Below are positions 4,161-38,132 of a stretch of 64,000 bases of DNA, in pieces; position 1 is the stretch's first letter; each line of letters begins with the position of its first letter. The translations under genes were made by a program, and so were the position numbers. Below the pieces are notes generated by a model. That model ran no database searches. It was not told the origin of the DNA and saw only the letters and a list, made by a program, of their open reading frames with translations. Source of the stretch: Herbiconiux ginsengi (GTDB taxonomy: Bacteria; Actinomycetota; Actinomycetes; Actinomycetales; Microbacteriaceae); contig NZ_FNPZ01000005.1 of assembly GCF_900107435.1 (NCBI RefSeq), positions 62,001 through 126,000 on the forward strand, in the 5' to 3' direction.

Positions 4161-4200
4161 CTGAGCGTGGTGGATGGTCTCACCCGTCCACCACGCTCAG
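4161..4200. terminator. Bidirectional terminator hairpin
   Basis: A perfect 14-bp stem, CTGAGCGTGGTGGA at 4161-4174 paired with its complement at 4187-4200, with a 12-nt loop. It sits between the convergent tetR and ABC-transporter genes. No long T-tract is present on either side. Confidence 0.85.
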
Positions 4201-24310: not shown

Positions 24311-25585
24311 TTGCTCGCTCATGTCGACGTCAATTCGGCATATGCGTCGTTCGAACGGGTCTTCAATCCATCTCTCGACGGTCGCCCACTCGTCGTCCTC
24401 AGCAATAACGATGGCATGGTCGTGGCCGCGTCGAGAGAGGCGAAGGCGATCGGCCTGGATCTCGGAAAGCCGTGGTTCGAGCTGCGGCCTCACGCACAGC
24501 GATTAGGTGTTGCAGCGGTGTCGAGCAACTATGAACTGTACGGCGATATGAGCCGAAGGGTGATGGAAGTACTGGAGCGGTTCACCCATGAGCTCGACGT
24601 GTACTCCATCGACGAGGCTTTCTTGACGGTTGATCGTCGTGCCGCCACCGATGCCGCCGCGATGACCCGTCTGGGGAGGGAGATCAAGAACACTCTGCGA
24701 CGTTTGCTGGGCGTTCCGGTGTGTGTGTGGATCGCCCCGAATCGCACCCTGGCGAAACTAGCCAATCGGACAGCGAAAAAGCTTCCCGTGTTCGACGGCG
24801 TCTGTGTGTGGACGGCCACTCGCCCGGAATGGCGCCAGCAGCTCATGGAGGCACTGCCGGTGTCGGAAGTGTGGGGCATCGCCAGCCGGCTCGAACGTCG
24901 GCTTCTCGGTTATGGGGTCCGGTCGATTTGGGATCTGGCCACGGCGGAGCCGGTGCAGGTCCGGAAGTGGTTTAACGTCGTCGTCATGCGGACGGCGCTC
25001 GAGCTCCGTGGGGTTGCTGCTATCGGCCCGGAGGAGGACCGCACCGGCCGGAAGGATCAATTGATCGTGTCCAGGTCATTCTCGGAGAAGGTCACAACGC
25101 GAGCGGGTATCCGCCAGGCGCTATCGGTGTATGCGCAACGGGCGGCTTCACGTCTCGTCCGTCACGGCCAGGTCGCCAAGACGCTCACGACCTTCGCCGG
25201 CACGAGTCATTGGACGGAGCAGATGCATCATCCGAGCGCGACGGTGCGGCTGCCCTTTCCGACTGCGGATCCTGTTGAACTGACCCGAGCGGCTCATCTG
25301 CTTCTCCCCCAGATTGAGGAGGGCATTCGGTATGCCAGGGCGGGGATCATGCTCACAGATCTGATGCAGGCGGGTGCGCAGCTCCCCCTCGAGCCGTTCC
25401 GCCACCGCCACGAGGATGCCGGCATATCGACGTTGATCGACAGCGTGCAGAAGATGGCCGGGCGGGAGTCCCTGGCGCTCGGCTATGCGGGACTCCGGCC
25501 AGGTCCGTCGTGGCAGATGAAGCGGGAGCTGCTGACACCGCGTGCGACGACCCACTGGTCCGAGCTCACCACGGTGAAGGCGTGA
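24311..25585 (+). CDS. umuC: UmuC-like Y-family DNA polymerase subunit
   Basis: A 424-aa Y-family translesion polymerase. The metal-binding acids are in [13 protein letters not shown] (N-terminal Asp) and YSIDEAFL (Asp-Glu). The helix-hairpin-helix region ([17 protein letters not shown]) and the little-finger domain follow at full length. The start is TTG at 24311, 6 bp after umuD, the only start that keeps the DVNSAY segment close to the N-terminus as in the family. Plasmid umuDC genes give mutagenic repair and could finish damaged complementary strands after transfer. Confidence 0.93.
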
Positions 25586-30869: not shown

Positions 30870-31012
30870 TGTCTGGCAAGCGCAGTGATTGAGAGTGGAC
30901 GGCCCGTAGTGCGTGCCAATTCGGGCGAAATGAGCCCGTCAGGGCGCGTCCGGATTGGTGGGCACGGAGGGCCGGGAGCGAACTATCGTGAAGTGGCCAG
31001 ACAGACGGAAAA
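30870..31012 (-). repeat. Structured leader with dispersed repeat, copy A
   Basis: Upstream of the 84-aa gene. TGTCTGGC at 30870-30877 can pair with GCCAGACA at 30996-31003 across about 120 bp. The stretch 30974-31012 (GGGAGCGAACTATCGTG onwards) is nearly identical to 32779-32817. Inside is GGGC-GAAAT-GAGCCC-like pairing instead of the leading-region element core. The remaining 31013-31212 is GC-rich and shows no gene. Confidence 0.6.
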
Positions 31013-31212: not shown

Positions 31213-32643
31213 CTACTCCTCGGACTGGTCTGCCTCATTGCCCGAGTCGTCCTGTTCGGCTCCAGGGGCTTCGGTCGGGGCGTCGGCGTGCGCCTCGGCG
31301 GTGACGATCTTCTCGACGTCGCTGAGGGTGTAACCCCAGGCTTCGAGCTGGGTGAAGTAGTGGCCGTCGCGGGAAGCGGGGGAGCGCCAGGTCGTCTTGC
31401 TCGTGTTCGACTCGATGCCTCCGAGCACCACAGCAAGCGTCACGTGCTGTGCCTTCGAAGGGGTCTTGGCCACGATGCCCGCGAGCTTGTCGCGCTCGTA
31501 GTACCCGCCGCGCTCCACGCCCATCAACTCGTGCGCGAGCGCGTTCCCGTCGCGCGATGCGGAGCCGACGGTGAGCCCGTGGACGGTGAGTCCCTGGGCG
31601 ATGAACTGTGCGGCATCCTTCGGAAGGGTTTTGCGGGAGAGGAATGACGCGAGCCACTCTCGGCGGACGACCGCGGCGCTGGCCCATGCTTTGTTGTTGG
31701 CGATCAGCGTCTTGCGCTCGGCTTTCTGCTCGTCGGTCATCGGTCCGGTGGTCGCACCGTGTCCGCTGGATTTCCGGAACCCTGCGCCTTTCGGGTCGGC
31801 GATGTAGAACATCGCTCGCACCTGACCGCCGAAGTAGGTTCCGACGTAGACGGCACGACCCTCGGCAGCATCGACCTGCTCCTGGGTAAGGCTCTCACCG
31901 TCTGCGCTCACGAGGTTGCGGACAAGGGTGTAGTCCGTTTCGTAGTGGCCACGCTCTCGATCGAGCACCGTGTATCCCCGTGCGGCGTACTCGGCTTCAA
32001 CTGCGGCTTTCTCCTCGGCCCGAGCTTTCTCATCGCGTGCCCGCTGGGCGGCGTGGGCGAACTGGCCCGGGTCGGTGGTCGCGGTCTCGATTAGGTCCGC
32101 CACGGTGTCGTCGTCGCCCTGAAACTCGATCAGAGTTGCTGCCTGGTCGAGGGTCAGCGAGTGCGACACGATGGCGGACGCGGCGGCGGCGTTTTCCGCC
32201 ACGGCGATTCCGGCCTTCACGGTCGCGGGCTTGGTGTTGAGCCGTTTGGCGATCACGGTCGGCGTGAGGCCTTCGAACGCAAGCTGCTGGTAGGCAGCTA
32301 CCCGGTCGGCGTCGGTGACGGCCTCGCGGTGCTCGTTCTCTGCCATCTGCTGAATGATGCGATCCACGGTCTTCTCGTCAGCATCGACGATGTAGGCGGG
32401 GATGCTCACCAGCCCGACCTCACGGGCCGCGAGGGTGCGGCGCTGACCGGCTCGCACGATGACGTTCCCGTGCTCGTCGCGGCGGGCGAGGATCGGTGTC
32501 AGCACCCCGTTCTGCTTGATGCTCGCCAGGAATTCGGTGGGCAGTTTCGCGTCCGTCCGCACGTTGGCTTCGACGACGATCTGGTTCGGGTCGATGTGCT
32601 CCACGGTGCCCTGCGCGGTGGAGTTGGCGTTGGTGGTTGTCAT
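31213..32643 (-). CDS. ParB/Spo0J-domain protein of the leading region
   Basis: A 476-aa protein. The N-terminal ParB-like domain is clear (IDPNQIVVEANVRTD, SIKQNGVLTPILARR, VRAGQRRTLAAREVG), followed by the HTH-containing central part (YQQLAFEGLTPTVIAKRLN). The long C-terminal half is not Spo0J-like and ends in an acidic tail. It is far from parA and has its own leader, so it is more likely a conjugation or antirestriction-region ParB-like protein than the partition partner. Element copy 5 lies 82 bp upstream. Confidence 0.75.
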   Translation of the reverse strand: MTTTNANSTAQGTVEHIDPNQIVVEANVRTDAKLPTEFLASIKQNGVLTPILARRDEHGNVIVRAGQRRTLAAREVGLVSIPAYIVDADEKTVDRIIQQMAENEHREAVTDADRVAAYQQLAFEGLTPTVIAKRLNTKPATVKAGIAVAENAAAASAIVSHSLTLDQAATLIEFQGDDDTVADLIETATTDPGQFAHAAQRARDEKARAEEKAAVEAEYAARGYTVLDRERGHYETDYTLVRNLVSADGESLTQEQVDAAEGRAVYVGTYFGGQVRAMFYIADPKGAGFRKSSGHGATTGPMTDEQKAERKTLIANNKAWASAAVVRREWLASFLSRKTLPKDAAQFIAQGLTVHGLTVGSASRDGNALAHELMGVERGGYYERDKLAGIVAKTPSKAQHVTLAVVLGGIESNTSKTTWRSPASRDGHYFTQLEAWGYTLSDVEKIVTAEAHADAPTEAPGAEQDDSGNEADQSEE

Positions 32644-32675: not shown

Positions 32676-32817
32676 TGTCTGGCAGGCGCAGCGATTGAGA
32701 GCGGACGTGCCGGAGTGCCGGGTCGTGGAATACCGGAGCGCAGCGAGGATATGCCGCGAAAGCCCGGAACGCAGGCTCGGGAGCGAACTATCGTGGAGTG
32801 GCCAGACAGACGGAAAA
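32676..32817 (-). repeat. Structured leader with dispersed repeat, copy B
   Basis: TGTCTGGC (32676-32683) and GCCAGACA (32801-32808) bracket element copy 5. The outer stretch 32779-32817 is the second copy of the 39-bp repeat found at 30974-31012. Confidence 0.6.
32725..32763 (-). repeat. Leading-region element, copy 5 (upstream of the parB-like gene)
   Basis: Shortest copy (39 bp): both arms are intact (GTGGAATACCGG and GGATATGCCGCGAAAGC) but the core is reduced to AGCGCAGCGA. It lies 82 bp from the start codon. Confidence 0.88.
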
Positions 32818-33010: not shown

Positions 33011-33205
33011 ATGATGACGACGATCGACAGCAAGCCCCCGAGGAAGCGTGATGTCGCTGTCCAGCTGAACACTCGGGTGTCGCTTGATAACCGCGAGTTG
33101 CTGGACGAGGTGGTGGCCCGTGAGGGGATCAGTCTGCGTGCCGCGGTCGAGATGGCGATCCGGTCCACGTGGGGGAGTGGAGCTCAGAAGGCTGATCCGT
33201 CATGA
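33011..33205 (+). CDS. Small RHH-like protein in front of repA
   Basis: A 64-aa protein: a basic N-terminus (PPRKRDVAVQLNTRVSLDNR) followed by a helix pair (ELLDEVVAREGISLRAAVEMAI), as in ribbon-helix-helix DNA-binding proteins. GTGGAGGA precedes the ATG and the gene overlaps repA by 4 bases. It is probably a replication regulator or accessory, inferred from fold and operon position. Confidence 0.7.
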   Translation: MMTTIDSKPPRKRDVAVQLNTRVSLDNRELLDEVVAREGISLRAAVEMAIRSTWGSGAQKADPS

Positions 33206-34125
33206 GCGCCGTCGAACCGTCGGTGCCGCGAATTTCGCGGGATCGCCTCAAGGCGCTGAATTTCGCCGCGGCTCAGGAGCAGGACGACAGCAATCCTCTC
33301 GTTGGCTATAGCGCACGGGTGTGGGCCCAGGTGTCGTTGCCGTACCGAGACCCGGGCGATGTGCCTTTCTGGACTCGCAAGAACGGCGATGTCGAGTTGA
33401 CGATGCGTCCTGCTCTTCTGTCGAACGCGGATGGCACGAAGTACGAGGGGTTTGCGTACGGGCTGTTGCCTCGGCATGCGCTCACCTGGATTGCAACAGA
33501 AGCGGTCCGCACGCAGACCCCGGTCCTCCAGCTGGGCTCGAGCATGAATACGTTCATGCAGAAGATCGGCTTGGCCAAGGGCGGGCGGGATGCGAAGCGA
33601 CTCACCGAGCAGCTGCAGCGGTTGTTTGGCTCGCAGCTGTTCGTACGCGGCCTAGCGATGAATGAGAACGGCCGCGGTGAGGTGACGAAGTACTTCCAGA
33701 TCGCTGACACCGTGCAGTTGTGGTTCTCCAAGGAGGTCGGCGACGAGAATAAGGGTTTGTGGTCGTCGTCGGTGACGTTGTCTGAGTCGTTCTACCGGTC
33801 GATCGTCGATGCTCCAGTGCCGGTGCACCTGGAGGCGATGCGCGCTTTGGGTTCGTCGCCGATGAGGCTCGATATCTACCTATGGGCGACGTACCGAGTG
33901 TTCACCTTGACGAGGCCGGCGAAAATTCGGTGGACGGAGTTGAACGATCAGTTCGGTGGCCAGTACGGGTCGATCCGTCAGTTCAAGGCGGCGTTCATCA
34001 AGAACCTGCACGAAGTGAAGTTGGTGTACCCGGAGCTCAACGTTGAAGTGACTCCTGAGTTTTTGGTGCTGCGGCCGTCGCGCCCGCATATTGCGCCGAC
34101 GAAACGTCGGGTCGAGCTCATTTAG
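33202..34125 (+). CDS. repA: RepA-type plasmid replication initiator
   Basis: A 307-aa protein resembling the plasmid-encoded RepA family (pfam 'Plasmid encoded RepA protein'). Seen are SARVWAQVSLPYRDPG, EGFAYGLLPRHALTWIATEA, LGSSMNTFMQKIGLAKGGRD, SFYRSIVDAPVPVHLEAMRA and RLDIYLWATYRVF, a sequence of blocks typical of the family with winged-helix character. It is directly followed by an iteron-rich region, the expected binding site. ATGA-type overlap with the upstream RHH gene. Confidence 0.85.
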   Translation: MSAVEPSVPRISRDRLKALNFAAAQEQDDSNPLVGYSARVWAQVSLPYRDPGDVPFWTRKNGDVELTMRPALLSNADGTKYEGFAYGLLPRHALTWIATEAVRTQTPVLQLGSSMNTFMQKIGLAKGGRDAKRLTEQLQRLFGSQLFVRGLAMNENGRGEVTKYFQIADTVQLWFSKEVGDENKGLWSSSVTLSESFYRSIVDAPVPVHLEAMRALGSSPMRLDIYLWATYRVFTLTRPAKIRWTELNDQFGGQYGSIRQFKAAFIKNLHEVKLVYPELNVEVTPEFLVLRPSRPHIAPTKRRVELI

Positions 34126-34923
34126 CCGGCCGGCCCGTTGGCGGAGTGACAAACGGCGTCACAGAGTACCCATGACGTGGGGTGTCACCAATTGCCCACG
34201 GGCGGCTGTCACAAGTTACCCACGGGCCGCGATCAGGCGCGGTGGCCTTGGGTTCGCGGTGACGGGCTCAGGTGTGCCGGAACGACCGCGGGGACTGGTG
34301 ACGGGGGTTTTATGGCCGTAGGACGTCGCTGAGCGCCGTGCTGGCAGCGCGTGTCCGCTGCCGGTAGTCGCGTGGGTGGGTTTGGTTCAAGATTTGGGCC
34401 GCTCGAGTCCGAGTCCTAAGACTCAACGCCGGTCCGCTGTGTGGTCGGCTCGAGAAGTGATGTCTTCTACCGGTGGATCTATCTGTAGAACTACAGGGGG
34501 CCACCTGATGCGTGCCCGGGATCGCCGTCATTGCAGGCATCGAAGCCTCTGGGTCTGTTCTGGGCTGTCACAAGATACCCACGTCGGCGTCATCAGACAC
34601 CCACGAAGGCGTCACTGAAGACCCACGTCTGTCACCAATTACCCATGGATTTCGCGGGGGACTTTGGTGACGAGCTTGTGTGGACAGCGCAGGGCCGCTG
34701 TTCGTCACCAGATACCCACGATTCGGCGCTCTGGGCCGTCACCAATTACCCATGAGACATCGCCGTCGAACCGGTCGAACGCTGCGTTCGGCGGCGTAAT
34801 CAGATGCCCATGGCGGACATCATGCAGCGGATCGAATTTTGTTGCGATCTTCATGGGTATTTGGTGACGGCTCGGCCCGCCATGTCACAACGCCGGAGCC
34901 GCAGTCTCCTGCTCCGTGGTCGT
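34126..34923. other. oriV: Replication origin region with 17-bp iterons
   Basis: A gene-free stretch with repeats close to GTCACCAATTACCCATG. Plus-strand copies are at 34158, 34184, 34208, 34567, 34589, 34611, 34631, 34704, 34738 and a weak one at 34796, mostly 20-26 bp apart in two clusters. An inverted copy is at 34852-34868. Between the clusters lies the palindrome CTGTAG-AA-CTACAG (34483-34496). Location directly after repA supports an iteron-controlled oriV. No clear DnaA box was found. Confidence 0.85.
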
Positions 34924-36846
34924 CTACGCGACGTCGCCGAGCTGCCAGCGGCTGTCGGGGTTGAGGTACCCGGCGTTCACGTATTCGCGTGCCTCACGAT
35001 GGTTTCCACGGCCATCTGCTGAGCGTGGGTATCTGGGCCAATTCCGTTCCCCGGACCCTGTGTCGCGAAAAATGGGACGAGCAGAGACGTGGGGTCTTTT
35101 TGGTCGTTCACGTGGGCTGCTGGTCATGGTGTCGTATTCAGCGAGCCACCAGGCCCAGACCTCTCGTTCTTCGCTGTAGCGTCGCGCTCGGGCAGCGAGG
35201 GTTCCAAGTATCCCGAGCTTCCGTGCAGCGGCATCCCGGAGGTCACGAACGGACCGTATCCAGCCGCCGCCACGTTTGATGACGAGTCGCGAGTGACGCA
35301 GGCGGCTCAGAGCGGTGGTCGCCGTCCGTCGATCTACACCGAGGAGCTCTGCTGCCCCGTCGACAGTGATCGGGTCCGGACGGTCCCGGAGTTCTGCGTA
35401 GATTCGTCCGGCGGTGTGTCCGTGGCCAGCGCGAGTAAAGACGTCATGCCGGCCGTCGGTCAAGAGATGGGTCAGCTTGCTGAGGATCACGGTGCGGTTG
35501 CTGAAGAGTTGGCCCGGGGGGCGGGGGTTCTTAAAGGGTTGTGACCGGTCCTTGTCGGAGGGTGTGGAAAAGTCGGGGGTTAGCCTGAATTCGCGGGCGT
35601 TGGGACCGTCTGCTGTCCTGATCGTTTCGATCCAGCCGTCCGTGGTGAGCGCTTTGAGGGCCGTGTTGGCGGTGGTGCGTCCGATGCCGGCGAGGAGGGC
35701 GAGGTCGCGGATGGAGGCGCCGATGATCTCCTTGCCGGTGTGCATGCTGAGGTACGTCAGAGCGAGGAGGACGGAGCGTTGGCTGACGGCGGCTTCGGTG
35801 CGTCCCCACCGGCCGGGGCTTGCGTGCAGGCGCTGCAGGAGTGCCTCGGTGGTGGTGATGATGCTGTCCAGCTGGCTGAGGTCCTGGATGCGCGTGGTGG
35901 GCGGAAGGCCCTGGCGGAAGGTTGCGATGTCTTGTGCTTTGGCCCATTGCCGGTTGAGGCGTTCTGCCGCTTCGTGCGCGGCTCTGGGGCGTCGTGCGCC
36001 GCGGCCGGTGTTTTTGGTGCGGTAGTGCTCCATGCCGGGGGCGGTGCGGGCGGCGTGTTCGATGTCGCGGGTGCTCCAGCCGGCTGTCGCGGCGGCGAGG
36101 AGGCACATGAACCCGGTCCAGGAAGGGTTGCTGCCGCCTCGCACGGTGGCCATGTGGGCTTCACCCCAGCTCGTGAGCTTGCGGTGGGGGCGATGGTTGT
36201 TGGTGGGCCCGGAAGGTCCGCTCTGTTCCGTGTGCGCGCGGGGGGCCGCGTTCTCGAGGGCGACGGTCACGGCGGCGAGTGCGGCCGGTTCGGCGTTTGC
36301 GTCCAGGAGGCTGTCGATGGTGCCACGAAGCACGGTGGAGTGGCTTCCGTTGCGGTGGGGCGACAGGGGCGGGCGGGCGGCGCCTTCGCGGGCGTTGAGG
36401 AGCATGCCGTGGTCGAGGCTTCGGTAGTGGGCGCGGGCTGCGGTGGCGAGGGCGGCTGTGGCGATGGCGGAGAGCCCGCCTCGGGGGGCGATCCAGATGT
36501 GGCGGCCGCCGGAAGTGGAGGATTCGCAGATCAGGTGCGGCACGTTGTGGGTTGCGAGGAGGGTACTGAGTGCGTCGCAGTCGTCTTGTGCGGTTTCGGG
36601 TTCGTCGGCTTTGGCGTCGAAGTCGAAGCAGAGCAGCCGGAAGGTGCCGTGTTCATCGGCGAGCCTCATGCACCAGGGCGTGGTGGGGGTGTGGGGGTTG
36701 AGGCGGTGCAGGTGGGGGTATTCGTTGGCGTGGAGTTGGCCGTCGGCTTCACGAACCATGATCCGGACTTGGTTGCGGGGGCTGATGCGGCGGGTGAGTT
36801 CCCATGCGGTGTGGGTATTTTGTGACGGGTGGGTATTTGGTGACAC
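34924..36846 (-). CDS. Primase-polymerase-like plasmid replication protein
   Basis: A 640-aa protein. The N-terminal 200 residues look like an archaeo-eukaryotic primase (AEP) domain: FRLLCFDFDAKADEP carries the two metal-binding acids and ESSTSGGRHIWIAP the conserved histidine motif. The middle holds a PriCT-like or helical part (WTGFMCLLAAATAGWSTRDI). Two winged-helix segments follow (ASIRDLALLAGIGRTTANTA and VDGAAELLGVDRRTATTALS). The GTG start at 36846 lies inside inverted iterons, so residues 2-12 are encoded by iteron sequence. A later start would remove only these residues. It probably primes or extends DNA at the origin. Confidence 0.75.
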   Translation of the reverse strand: MSPNTHPSQNTHTAWELTRRISPRNQVRIMVREADGQLHANEYPHLHRLNPHTPTTPWCMRLADEHGTFRLLCFDFDAKADEPETAQDDCDALSTLLATHNVPHLICESSTSGGRHIWIAPRGGLSAIATAALATAARAHYRSLDHGMLLNAREGAARPPLSPHRNGSHSTVLRGTIDSLLDANAEPAALAAVTVALENAAPRAHTEQSGPSGPTNNHRPHRKLTSWGEAHMATVRGGSNPSWTGFMCLLAAATAGWSTRDIEHAARTAPGMEHYRTKNTGRGARRPRAAHEAAERLNRQWAKAQDIATFRQGLPPTTRIQDLSQLDSIITTTEALLQRLHASPGRWGRTEAAVSQRSVLLALTYLSMHTGKEIIGASIRDLALLAGIGRTTANTALKALTTDGWIETIRTADGPNAREFRLTPDFSTPSDKDRSQPFKNPRPPGQLFSNRTVILSKLTHLLTDGRHDVFTRAGHGHTAGRIYAELRDRPDPITVDGAAELLGVDRRTATTALSRLRHSRLVIKRGGGWIRSVRDLRDAAARKLGILGTLAARARRYSEEREVWAWWLAEYDTMTSSPRERPKRPHVSARPIFRDTGSGERNWPRYPRSADGRGNHREAREYVNAGYLNPDSRWQLGDVA

Positions 36847-37138
36847 GCCGCCCGGTTGTGCTGCATTTCTGGGGGGTTGGCGCGTTACGATGGGAATATC
36901 TCCACTCCGGTGGGTGGGTACGACAAATGCCCGGAGCTCATCCGGTCCATGTTGGGAGATCGGCCGCGGTACCTGTTTGGGTCGCCAAACTTTTCGCAGG
37001 TTCGTGGCTGAGAGGCTTTGGCCCGTCGCGTTGCGGCGGGCCGCTTCTTGTTAAGCGGCTGTGATGCGGGCCTCCTTGGGTGGGGGGCGCACGCTGTCGG
37101 TTGCAGCTGCGAGCTGTGGGGCGTGGGTATTTGGTGAC
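36811..37138 (-). repeat. Inverted iterons upstream of the primase-like gene
   Basis: Iterons of the same family as at 34.1-34.8 kb but on the other strand: GTGGGTATTTTGTGAC at 36811-36826, GTGGGTATTTGGTGAC at 36829-36844 and CGTGGGTATTTGGTGAC at 37122-37138. The second and third share the longer stretch TGGGTATTTGGTGACACGCC. They overlap the start of the primase-like gene and precede two plus-strand small-RNA-like units. Confidence 0.8.
36898..37050 (+). ncRNA. Possible small RNA A
   Basis: A -10-like TACGAT (36886-36891) lies shortly after the inverted iterons. A transcript would end at the hairpin GGCCCGTCGC-GTT-GCGGCGGGCC (37020-37042, one G-T pair) followed by GCTTCTTGTT. There is no convincing protein-coding frame. 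The -35 is not recognisable. This could be a regulatory RNA or just a terminator. Confidence 0.35.
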
Positions 37139-37188
37139 ACGCCGGTGTTGCCGCTGTGCTCAGTTGTGGCGGAGCCTACAATCCTGAA

Positions 37189-37313
37189 CATAGGGAGACC
37201 TCCCGTGAGGGTTGGTTGATCTGGTTGAGCTCGAGCCTTCGTGCCTGGAAGCTGGTGGTTCGAGCTTGTTTGTGGGAGATGCCCGCCGCTGTTGCGGCGG
37301 GCTCTTTCGTTTT
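37189..37313 (+). ncRNA. Possible small RNA B
   Basis: Same layout as unit A: iteron (37122-37138), -10-like TACAAT (37177-37182), then about 130 nt ending in a textbook intrinsic terminator, GCCCGCCGC-TGTT-GCGGCGGGC (37281-37302) followed by TCTTTCGTTTT. The T-tract touches the stop of the convergent RHH gene. No coding frame of quality. Confidence 0.4.
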
Positions 37314-37542
37314 AAGCGGAGATCGGCAGCTCCTCGTAGCGGGGGAGGAGCGGGGCCTGGGGTGCGAGTTCAGCCATGCCGACCTCGCGGGCGAGGACCG
37401 AGGCGATGTAGTCGTTGACGCTCATGCCGTGAGCATCCGCCTTTTCGCGGACTGCTTCGCCGAGGGGGGTGGCGACGCGTGAGATGAGCGCTTGGCGGTC
37501 GCCTTTGCTTTGCCGGCCGCCTCGGTATCGCTGGCTAGTCAT
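37312..37542 (-). CDS. RHH-type DNA-binding protein
   Basis: A 76-aa basic protein (MTSQRYRGGRQSKGDRQALI) with a strand-helix-helix core (ISRVATPLGEAVREKADAHG, MSVNDYIASVLAREVGM) typical of ribbon-helix-helix/Arc-like repressors. The start at 37542 is chosen because upstream in-frame sequence runs through the palindromes at 37565-37619. These are its likely operator. It may control copy number or an antitoxin-like function; no toxin partner is visible. Confidence 0.7.
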   Translation of the reverse strand: MTSQRYRGGRQSKGDRQALISRVATPLGEAVREKADAHGMSVNDYIASVLAREVGMAELAPQAPLLPRYEELPISA

Positions 37543-37685: not shown

Positions 37686-38132
37686 TTACTCGCTGAACGC
37701 CGTTGTCTGGTTGCTGTAGCCGCGAAGGGCTTGTCGCAGCTGCGATTTCTGTACGACCCAGCGGCTTCCGACGTGGAAAGCGGGGATCACGCCGGATTCC
37801 ATCCATCGGTAGATGGTGGGTTTCGATTTCGCGAACAGAATCATGAGGTCGCGGTAGGTGAGTTCGTCGTCGAGGCCCTGAAGCACGTCCACCGGCGATG
37901 CGGGTGTCTGAGGGGAGCGGCTGTTGGTGGTCGCCAGCCAGGAGCGCACTTCGTCGCGGAAGACCACCCAACTGCGTTCGATCCGGTAGGCGGGGATGAT
38001 GCCGCTGGAGAGGCGTGTGAAGACGGTGACGCGTCCAACGCTGAGAATCTTGGCCAGCTGTGCTGTTGTCAGGGTCGGCGGGTATGACGCCCAGTAGGCG
38101 TCTTCCTCGTCGGCGGGAGGCGGGTGTGTCAT
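37686..38132 (-). CDS. Protein with two excisionase-type HTH domains
   Basis: A 148-aa protein with two similar HTH modules. The first is TTAQLAKILSVGRVTVFTRL followed by GIIPAYRIERSWVVFRDEV. The second is TYRDLMILFAKSKPTIYRWM followed by GVIPAFHVGSRWVVQKSQL. Each looks like an HTH_17/excisionase winged HTH. A tandem of two in one chain is unusual. The start is taken at 38132 (MTHPPPADEE); in-frame codons up to GTG at 38279 also exist. It lies between the replication and transfer modules and may regulate either. Confidence 0.65.
   Translation of the reverse strand: MTHPPPADEEDAYWASYPPTLTTAQLAKILSVGRVTVFTRLSSGIIPAYRIERSWVVFRDEVRSWLATTNSRSPQTPASPVDVLQGLDDELTYRDLMILFAKSKPTIYRWMESGVIPAFHVGSRWVVQKSQLRQALRGYSNQTTAFSE

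Follow-up and report, generated by a model that had tools for sequence, protein, structure and literature searches.

Here we analysed a 64,000-nt stretch of DNA from Herbiconiux ginsengi (the window), part of contig C6 in a genome of 4.85 Mb in 12 contigs, in which the gene of a RepA-type initiator and that of an AEP (prim-pol) protein are accompanied by one family of repeats (iterons) in opposite orientations. The contig is presumably a plasmid, and we consider it rather probable, judging from sequence comparisons, that it carries two replicons and that RepA bound at the AEP-side sites lowers the synthesis of the AEP protein. The first module would comprise repA and, immediately behind it, an iteron origin in two blocks, and the second a replication protein made of an AEP domain and two winged helices, with its own structured mRNA leader. 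RepA would start replication at the origin and would also bind the three iteron copies that lie in the leader of the AEP gene and among its first codons; there it would block AEP transcription, by repression or as a roadblock, and so lower AEP synthesis. By setting the amount of the AEP protein, RepA would keep the two replicons from firing independently, while a weak AUC start and a leader with hairpins resembling antisense targets would keep AEP low in any case.

A position weight matrix (PWM) made from the visible copies identified 15 sites of 17 nt in the 64 kb, all of them within positions 34158-37138, and no further site of at least 11 bits elsewhere in the window. Behind repA, origin block 1 (34158..34224, + strand, found by PWM and pattern) contains the sites at 34158, 34184 and 34208, and block 2 (34567..34868) contains the + strand sites at 34567, 34589 (weak), 34611, 34631, 34704, 34738 and 34796 (weak), the first three spaced 22 bp apart, together with the - strand sites at 34671 (weak) and 34868. 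On the AEP side, where all sites are on the - strand, the AEP reading frame contains two (36810..36844; starts 36826 and 36844) at a distance of 18 bp, and a third (37122..37138, start 37138, found by PWM) lies inside a small open reading frame (ORF) of the leader, where it reads GVSPNTH in frame. The pattern GTCACNNRWYRCCCAYR with at most one mismatch has 13 matches in the 64 kb (nine direct and one inverted behind repA, three inverted at the AEP end) against a mean of 0.33 and a largest value of 3 in shuffled sequences. When GTCACCAAWTACCCA was searched with up to two mismatches in the whole genome, 10 of 13 matches fell here and the other three carried two mismatches. A PWM built only from the nine origin-side sites scores the AEP-side sites at 23.8, 23.9 and 28.7 bits, and 1000 shuffles of the AEP-side 800 bp gave none at 18 bits. 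The oppositely oriented arrays flanking the AEP gene are thus real, as an earlier model-made reading of the sequence alone (the sequence-only reading) had claimed, and its observation that the residues SPNTHPSQNTH near the start of the primase-like protein are encoded by iterons is also borne out. Its description of the first array as about ten direct iterons overlooked the strong inverted copy at 34868.

Comparison with other loci indicates that the iterons go with RepA. The four RepA-only loci (L015-L018) carry long arrays of their own type behind repA, with GACCAGATACCCACG in Curtobacterium and other motifs in Frondihabitans, whereas the AEP-only loci (L010-L014) have no window-type site at AEP and no repeat family beyond two copies upstream of it; the idea that the AEP protein owns the iterons was rejected on these grounds. 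The arrays of several relatives hold three to four copies at 21-22 bp spacing, like sites 34567, 34589 and 34611. The closest relative found, Scaffold8 of Herbiconiux daphne (L047; RepA 98% and AEP 94% identical, matching DNA blocks 80-89%), shares 187 of 204 nt in the origin iterons of both blocks and 342 of 590 nt in the remaining origin DNA. Among 38 AEP loci, some of them duplicates, window-type sites at AEP occur only in the window (three), in L047 (three) and in Cnuibacter (L009, four), whose AEP is 64% identical to that of the window. The L009 sites, scored with the window PWM because an automatic motif search there gave CACCGCACC, reach 21-29 bits; three copies in frame (SPNTHAPSPDTHASLNTH) stand in place of two within an otherwise diverged N-terminal extension, and in all three plasmids the upstream copy sits in the leader ORF with GVSPNTH in frame. 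In the iteron 36810-36826 both changes between the window and L047 alter residues (QN to PD) and the motif is kept. Because RepA-type iterons have been kept at AEP in L047 and L009, control of AEP by RepA is a sensible reading, and the AEP-side sites are probably functional.

The initiator gene, repA (33202..34125, + strand, 307 aa), matches RepA_C (PF04796) with 79.3 bits at a cut-off of 26. Its predicted structure, with a predicted local distance difference test score (pLDDT) of 80.4, has a winged-helix initiator fold and found RctB (E 4.6e-6), RepE54 (4.4e-4) and a complex of Rep with a DNA unwinding element (4.7e-4) in Foldseek. Judging from family, fold and array, RepA would bind the origin array. 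Since plasmid records exist with RepA only (four of four without AEP) and with AEP only (seven of seven without RepA_C), the two appear to be separate replication modules, and the window looks like two replicons put together; that each gene occurs alone also speaks against the proposal in the sequence-only reading of one iteron system joining RepA and primase. Among 299 genomes drawn from the family (thresholds 1e-20 and 1e-40) RepA was present in 9 and AEP in 34, and AEP was found in eight of the nine RepA-positive genomes (in seven on the same contig) against 26 of the 290 others (Fisher 1e-7, the genomes not being independent). At five of eight RepA loci from genome contigs, two of these genomes being already in the family draw, AEP lay within the fetched 20 kb, and on other contigs the distance between the two genes reaches tens of kb. 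The genes are convergent neighbours, tail to tail, in the window, L047, L009 and two Curtobacterium loci (L048 and L049). No RepA relatives were found among the viral contigs searched.

The AEP gene (34924..36891, - strand, with the proposed AUC start at 36891-36889) was delimited by its ORF, fold and invariant residues. Numbered from the GTG at 36846, D75, D77, H116 and D145, which we take to be the Asp and His residues of the AEP catalytic motifs, are invariant in 29 of 29 and 23 of 23 aligned homologues (overlapping sets). In the predicted model the AEP domain is followed by two winged helices; it aligns with CAPP prim-pol (Z 15.9, root-mean-square deviation 3.6, 180 residues), the predicted template modelling score of the whole model being only 0.46. 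The AEP fold and its catalytic residues are intact. The first 10 residues from GTG are modelled at a pLDDT of about 33, and the iteron-encoded residues could hence vary. Residues 226-312 form a helical region with no Pfam match to PriCT, in a comparison with the AEP-PriCT-helix-turn-helix (HTH) arrangement of the RepE/RepS or PrimHYQ type. An NCBIfam search with the protein returned no family, PHROG gave weak matches to the HTH part, and the Pfam scan found no helicase domain. Among plasmid records, 204 carry the family at E 1e-5 and in 133 of them at least 80% of the query is covered; among the matches listed it is mostly annotated as a hypothetical or HTH protein.

With regard to translation, the sequence-only reading had taken GTG 36846 as the start. 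No Shine-Dalgarno (SD) sequence at a usable distance before it was found in our scan, the frame is open upstream, and 15 codons before the GTG lies an in-frame AUC (36891-36889) preceded by GGAG at 8 nt (36900..36903, - strand, from the SD scan). An in-frame ATC GTA behind an SD occurs in the window and in many relatives, and among 35 distinct loci ATC is the best SD-linked choice of ATN in 17, ATA in 11, ATG in five and ATT in one, with none in the last; the codon is ambiguous in L012 and L035 (CTG beside ATA), L030 and L046 (CTG candidates) and L031 and L032 (ATC then ATA), with L042 and L043 being doubtful cases. With the SD picked independently of the codon, 21 of 34 loci have ATN as the sole in-frame codon at 6-8 nt downstream of it, and 17 of 19 where the spacing is 7, against a background of 54 ATN in 1020 in-frame codons (5.3%). 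In L010, L020, L034 and L036 the AUC position is occupied by ATG, and in L044 a stop codon directly precedes the ATC. Of nine further loci, five have ATC, ATA, ATG or TTG following an SD, and the remaining four, both Rhodococcus among them, show no clean start. Translation most likely starts, on this sequence pattern, at AUC 36891, with GTG 36846 as an internal codon. That the GTG is instead the true start, perhaps leaderless, with the AUC frame extended by chance, draws on the GTG-TCN (GVS) also kept in frame in many homologues, as judged by eye; in view of the fixed SD spacing in most homologues and of ATG replacing AUC at the same place we think it unlikely. In Cnuibacter (L009) the RefSeq start of AEP, at 4175, lies well inside the conserved N-terminal domain, and starts in this family may be misannotated, AUC and AUA not being considered.

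The mRNA leader of the AEP gene, partly duplicated in the window, occupies the - strand. Leader 2 (36892..37046) has hairpins I (about 37020-37042), II (about 36960-37011, with the box GTTTGGCGAC) and III (about 36930-36946); upstream follow the leader ORF (37051..37191, 46 aa, ATG with an SD-like GGGAGG, 135 of 141 nt identical in L047) and leader 1 (37192..37306) with a second set of hairpins I and II. In the antisense direction (+ strand) each leader has a terminator-like hairpin, at 37019..37043 for leader 2 and at 37281..37302 for leader 1. The comparison covered 33 leaders from 31 loci, two of which have two leaders, after L023, L030, L042 and L043 had been dropped from the 35; common to them are a long hairpin II and a GC hairpin I, joined as a rule by hairpin III in leaders of the ATC/ATA type, while by our position rule no hairpin II was found in L025 and L033 and a different hairpin was picked in L012. 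Hairpin II covaries, its own arms pairing at -16.64 kcal/mol against -11.57 (standard deviation 0.57) for swapped arms, a value reached in none of 500 shuffles, and, being conserved among the leaders, could serve as an antisense target. Five of the 33 leaders carry GTTTGGCGAC as the loop of hairpin II and six the exact reverse complement GTCGCCAAAC, the boxes having been chosen after the sequences were seen; the former was seen again in Gulosibacter (L059) and Arthrobacter (L060). In 30 of the 33 leaders the 5' side of hairpin I is A-rich, which gives a U tail in the antisense direction, and in three its 3' side is T-rich, a count in which leader 2 of the window was parsed onto the wrong hairpin and stands among the failures. 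An Rfam search gave two matches, both below the gathering score. With regard to an activator pseudoknot, CGCCAA follows the AUC in the window and, judged by eye, does not in L009, L013 and L048. A short ORF is found in the rep leader of ColIb-P9, too. The hairpins, some with a UUGGCG loop, suggest antisense copy control of AEP; a title in the reference list of PMC10724649 names UUGGCG as the ColIb-P9 loop motif. A second AEP gene of the same genome, 33-35% identical and on another contig (C8:28856-30769, L029), has the loop GTCGCCAAAC in its leader, and if the loops set incompatibility the two AEP genes would differ in it.

Several observations weigh against these readings. The flanks of the AEP-side iterons are about as conserved between the window and L047 as the iterons themselves, and this pair says little alone. 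In seven other contigs with both genes we sought own-type RepA sites at the AEP start using the motif of each plasmid. L021 (only GC-rich words) and L023 (a TAGCTAGG repeat) allowed no credible iteron to be defined and were not informative, and in none of the five informative contigs (L020, L022, L025, L048 and L049) does an own-type site close to the AEP start exceed 11 bits; the one in L025, some 300 nt upstream, scores 10.4 bits, far less than the sites of its array. Single matches to the window PWM of 14-19 bits in L022, L034 and L045 lie away from the scored AEP start region. The link between RepA iterons and AEP is consequently not general among plasmids with both genes, and the control of the primase-like gene by RepA that the sequence-only reading had expected gains from the two other plasmids that keep the sites and loses from these five. 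In the case of the start codon, two Rhodococcus relatives and one Dietzia relative are without the SD/AUN pattern. Leader 2 folds no better than shuffles (z +0.48), leader 1 being unusually stable (z -4.68); RNAalifold on the alignment of the 33 leaders gave four pairs at -1.55 kcal/mol, a conserved pseudoknot was not apparent in the AEP leaders, and no sigma-70-like promoter was found in the window. The RepA-origin region has one relaxed DnaA-box match, at 35571 and outside the array, and its AT content is at most 0.43 per 100-bp bin.

Other explanations of the same sites have to be weighed. Iteron plasmids use extra iterons for copy control, and the AEP-side copies, which have the same motif in opposite orientation outside the main array, could act by titration of RepA or, over a distance of about 2 kb, by pairing with the origin array (handcuffing), thus limiting RepA replication and making any control of AEP incidental. 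That three plasmids have them in the leader and among the first codons fits gene control better, and no further sites lie elsewhere in the window, for which reasons we find this doubtful. The iterons could also be a recombination relic with no present function at AEP, having arrived with a repA-origin cassette or by duplication of the leader. The partial duplication of the leader is in keeping with this, as is the Cryobacterium plasmid L012, whose order of ATPase, M23 peptidase, small ORFs, AEP and ParB is that of the window minus the repA cassette. On the other side, the L009 sites still score 21-29 bits in a plasmid whose AEP is 64% identical and whose in-frame copies differ in number, and we consider a relic improbable.

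It could be argued, finally, that there is one replicon, with AEP acting as the primase at the RepA origin and neither working alone here. Although the frequent co-occurrence of the two genes and their convergent position also in L048 and L049 would fit such an arrangement, plasmid records with either gene alone and the tens of kb that can separate them make it quite improbable as well. We retain the proposal of two replicons with RepA lowering AEP synthesis.

Of the leads obtained, we regard the AEP family, whose members would act as initiators, as the most valuable. We put forward, tentatively and as possible rather than probable, that AEP stands for a large class of initiators of actinobacterial plasmids that has gone unrecognised, throttled by a conserved AUC or AUA start behind an SD and by a kissing-loop antisense leader, and that in this plasmid lineage a second replicon, of the iteron type, has added further control through RepA sites inside the AEP frame and the leader ORF. 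Two fully listed AEP plasmid records have no annotated replication gene, in a gene table stated to be incomplete, and pA19BH1 carries AEP at 60% identity; the part of Romaniuk et al. 2018 (PMC6305408) at hand reports a replication system among their Arthrobacter plasmids only for pA2H1, identification having failed for pA19BH1. The passages on Clavibacter and Curtobacterium plasmids in PMC4059874 and PMC8929003 describe no replication protein. The AEP family is an obvious candidate replication gene for actinobacterial plasmids without a recognised one. The listings of our literature searches, made in a limited library with limited terms, contained neither RepA iterons inside an AEP gene nor an AUC or AUA start in a plasmid rep gene. 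The former would amount to cross-talk between two replicons that share a plasmid, in a clear form open to experiment, and it would be out of the ordinary for a Rep gene to control copy number through its choice of start codon, as a conserved non-AUG start would imply.

The neighbourhood of both genes contains, likewise on the compared plasmids, a ParB-like protein (in the window 31216..32643, - strand, from the Pfam scan, adjoining the repA cassette), a ParA-like ATPase (sub-threshold) and an M23 peptidase. An ORF of 64 aa before repA (33011..33205, + strand, from the ORF list and without a Pfam family) may be a regulator, as its position would suggest. Upstream of the AEP leader lies a small HicB/NikA-like ORF (37312..37542, - strand, Pfam match below the curated cut-offs), followed by an HTH_17 protein (37686..38132, - strand, Pfam). 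A direct repeat of 51 nt has four copies among the plasmid genes (21546-21596, 25926-25976, 29123-29173 and 32713-32763), 88-90% alike except for the last at 61%, and may serve in these places as a common leader or regulatory element. Another repeat (52 nt, 90% alike) is located at 30961-31012 and 32766-32817, and the ORF 24311-25585 reads by eye like a Y-family polymerase of the UmuC/DinB type.

Compared with known systems, the AEP protein shares catalytic residues, fold and the HTH domains that follow with the plasmid AEP/prim-pol Rep proteins (the families of RepB' of RSF1010 and PrimPol-PV1), as far as the consulted passages of PMC5862659 describe them, and differs from these in having two winged helices, no helicase domain and no NCBIfam family. 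With the antisense-controlled replicons of the I-complex and ColIb-P9, as represented in the excerpts of PMC10724649, it has in common a hairpin target in the rep leader and the UUGGCG loop, whereas here the Rep is of the AEP type and actinobacterial, the loop occurs in relatives also as its exact reverse complement, and the antisense RNA and the pseudoknot are putative. The RepA module resembles the RepA_C (PF04796) iteron replicons in profile match, winged-helix initiator fold and array behind repA, and departs from them in that a second replication gene has additional, inverted iterons at its 5' end. Multireplicon plasmids are known, for example F, and the chimeric replicons of Pseudomonas reportedly join two replication modules on one plasmid as the window seems to do; in contrast to these, the AEP reading frame of the window contains sites of the RepA type.

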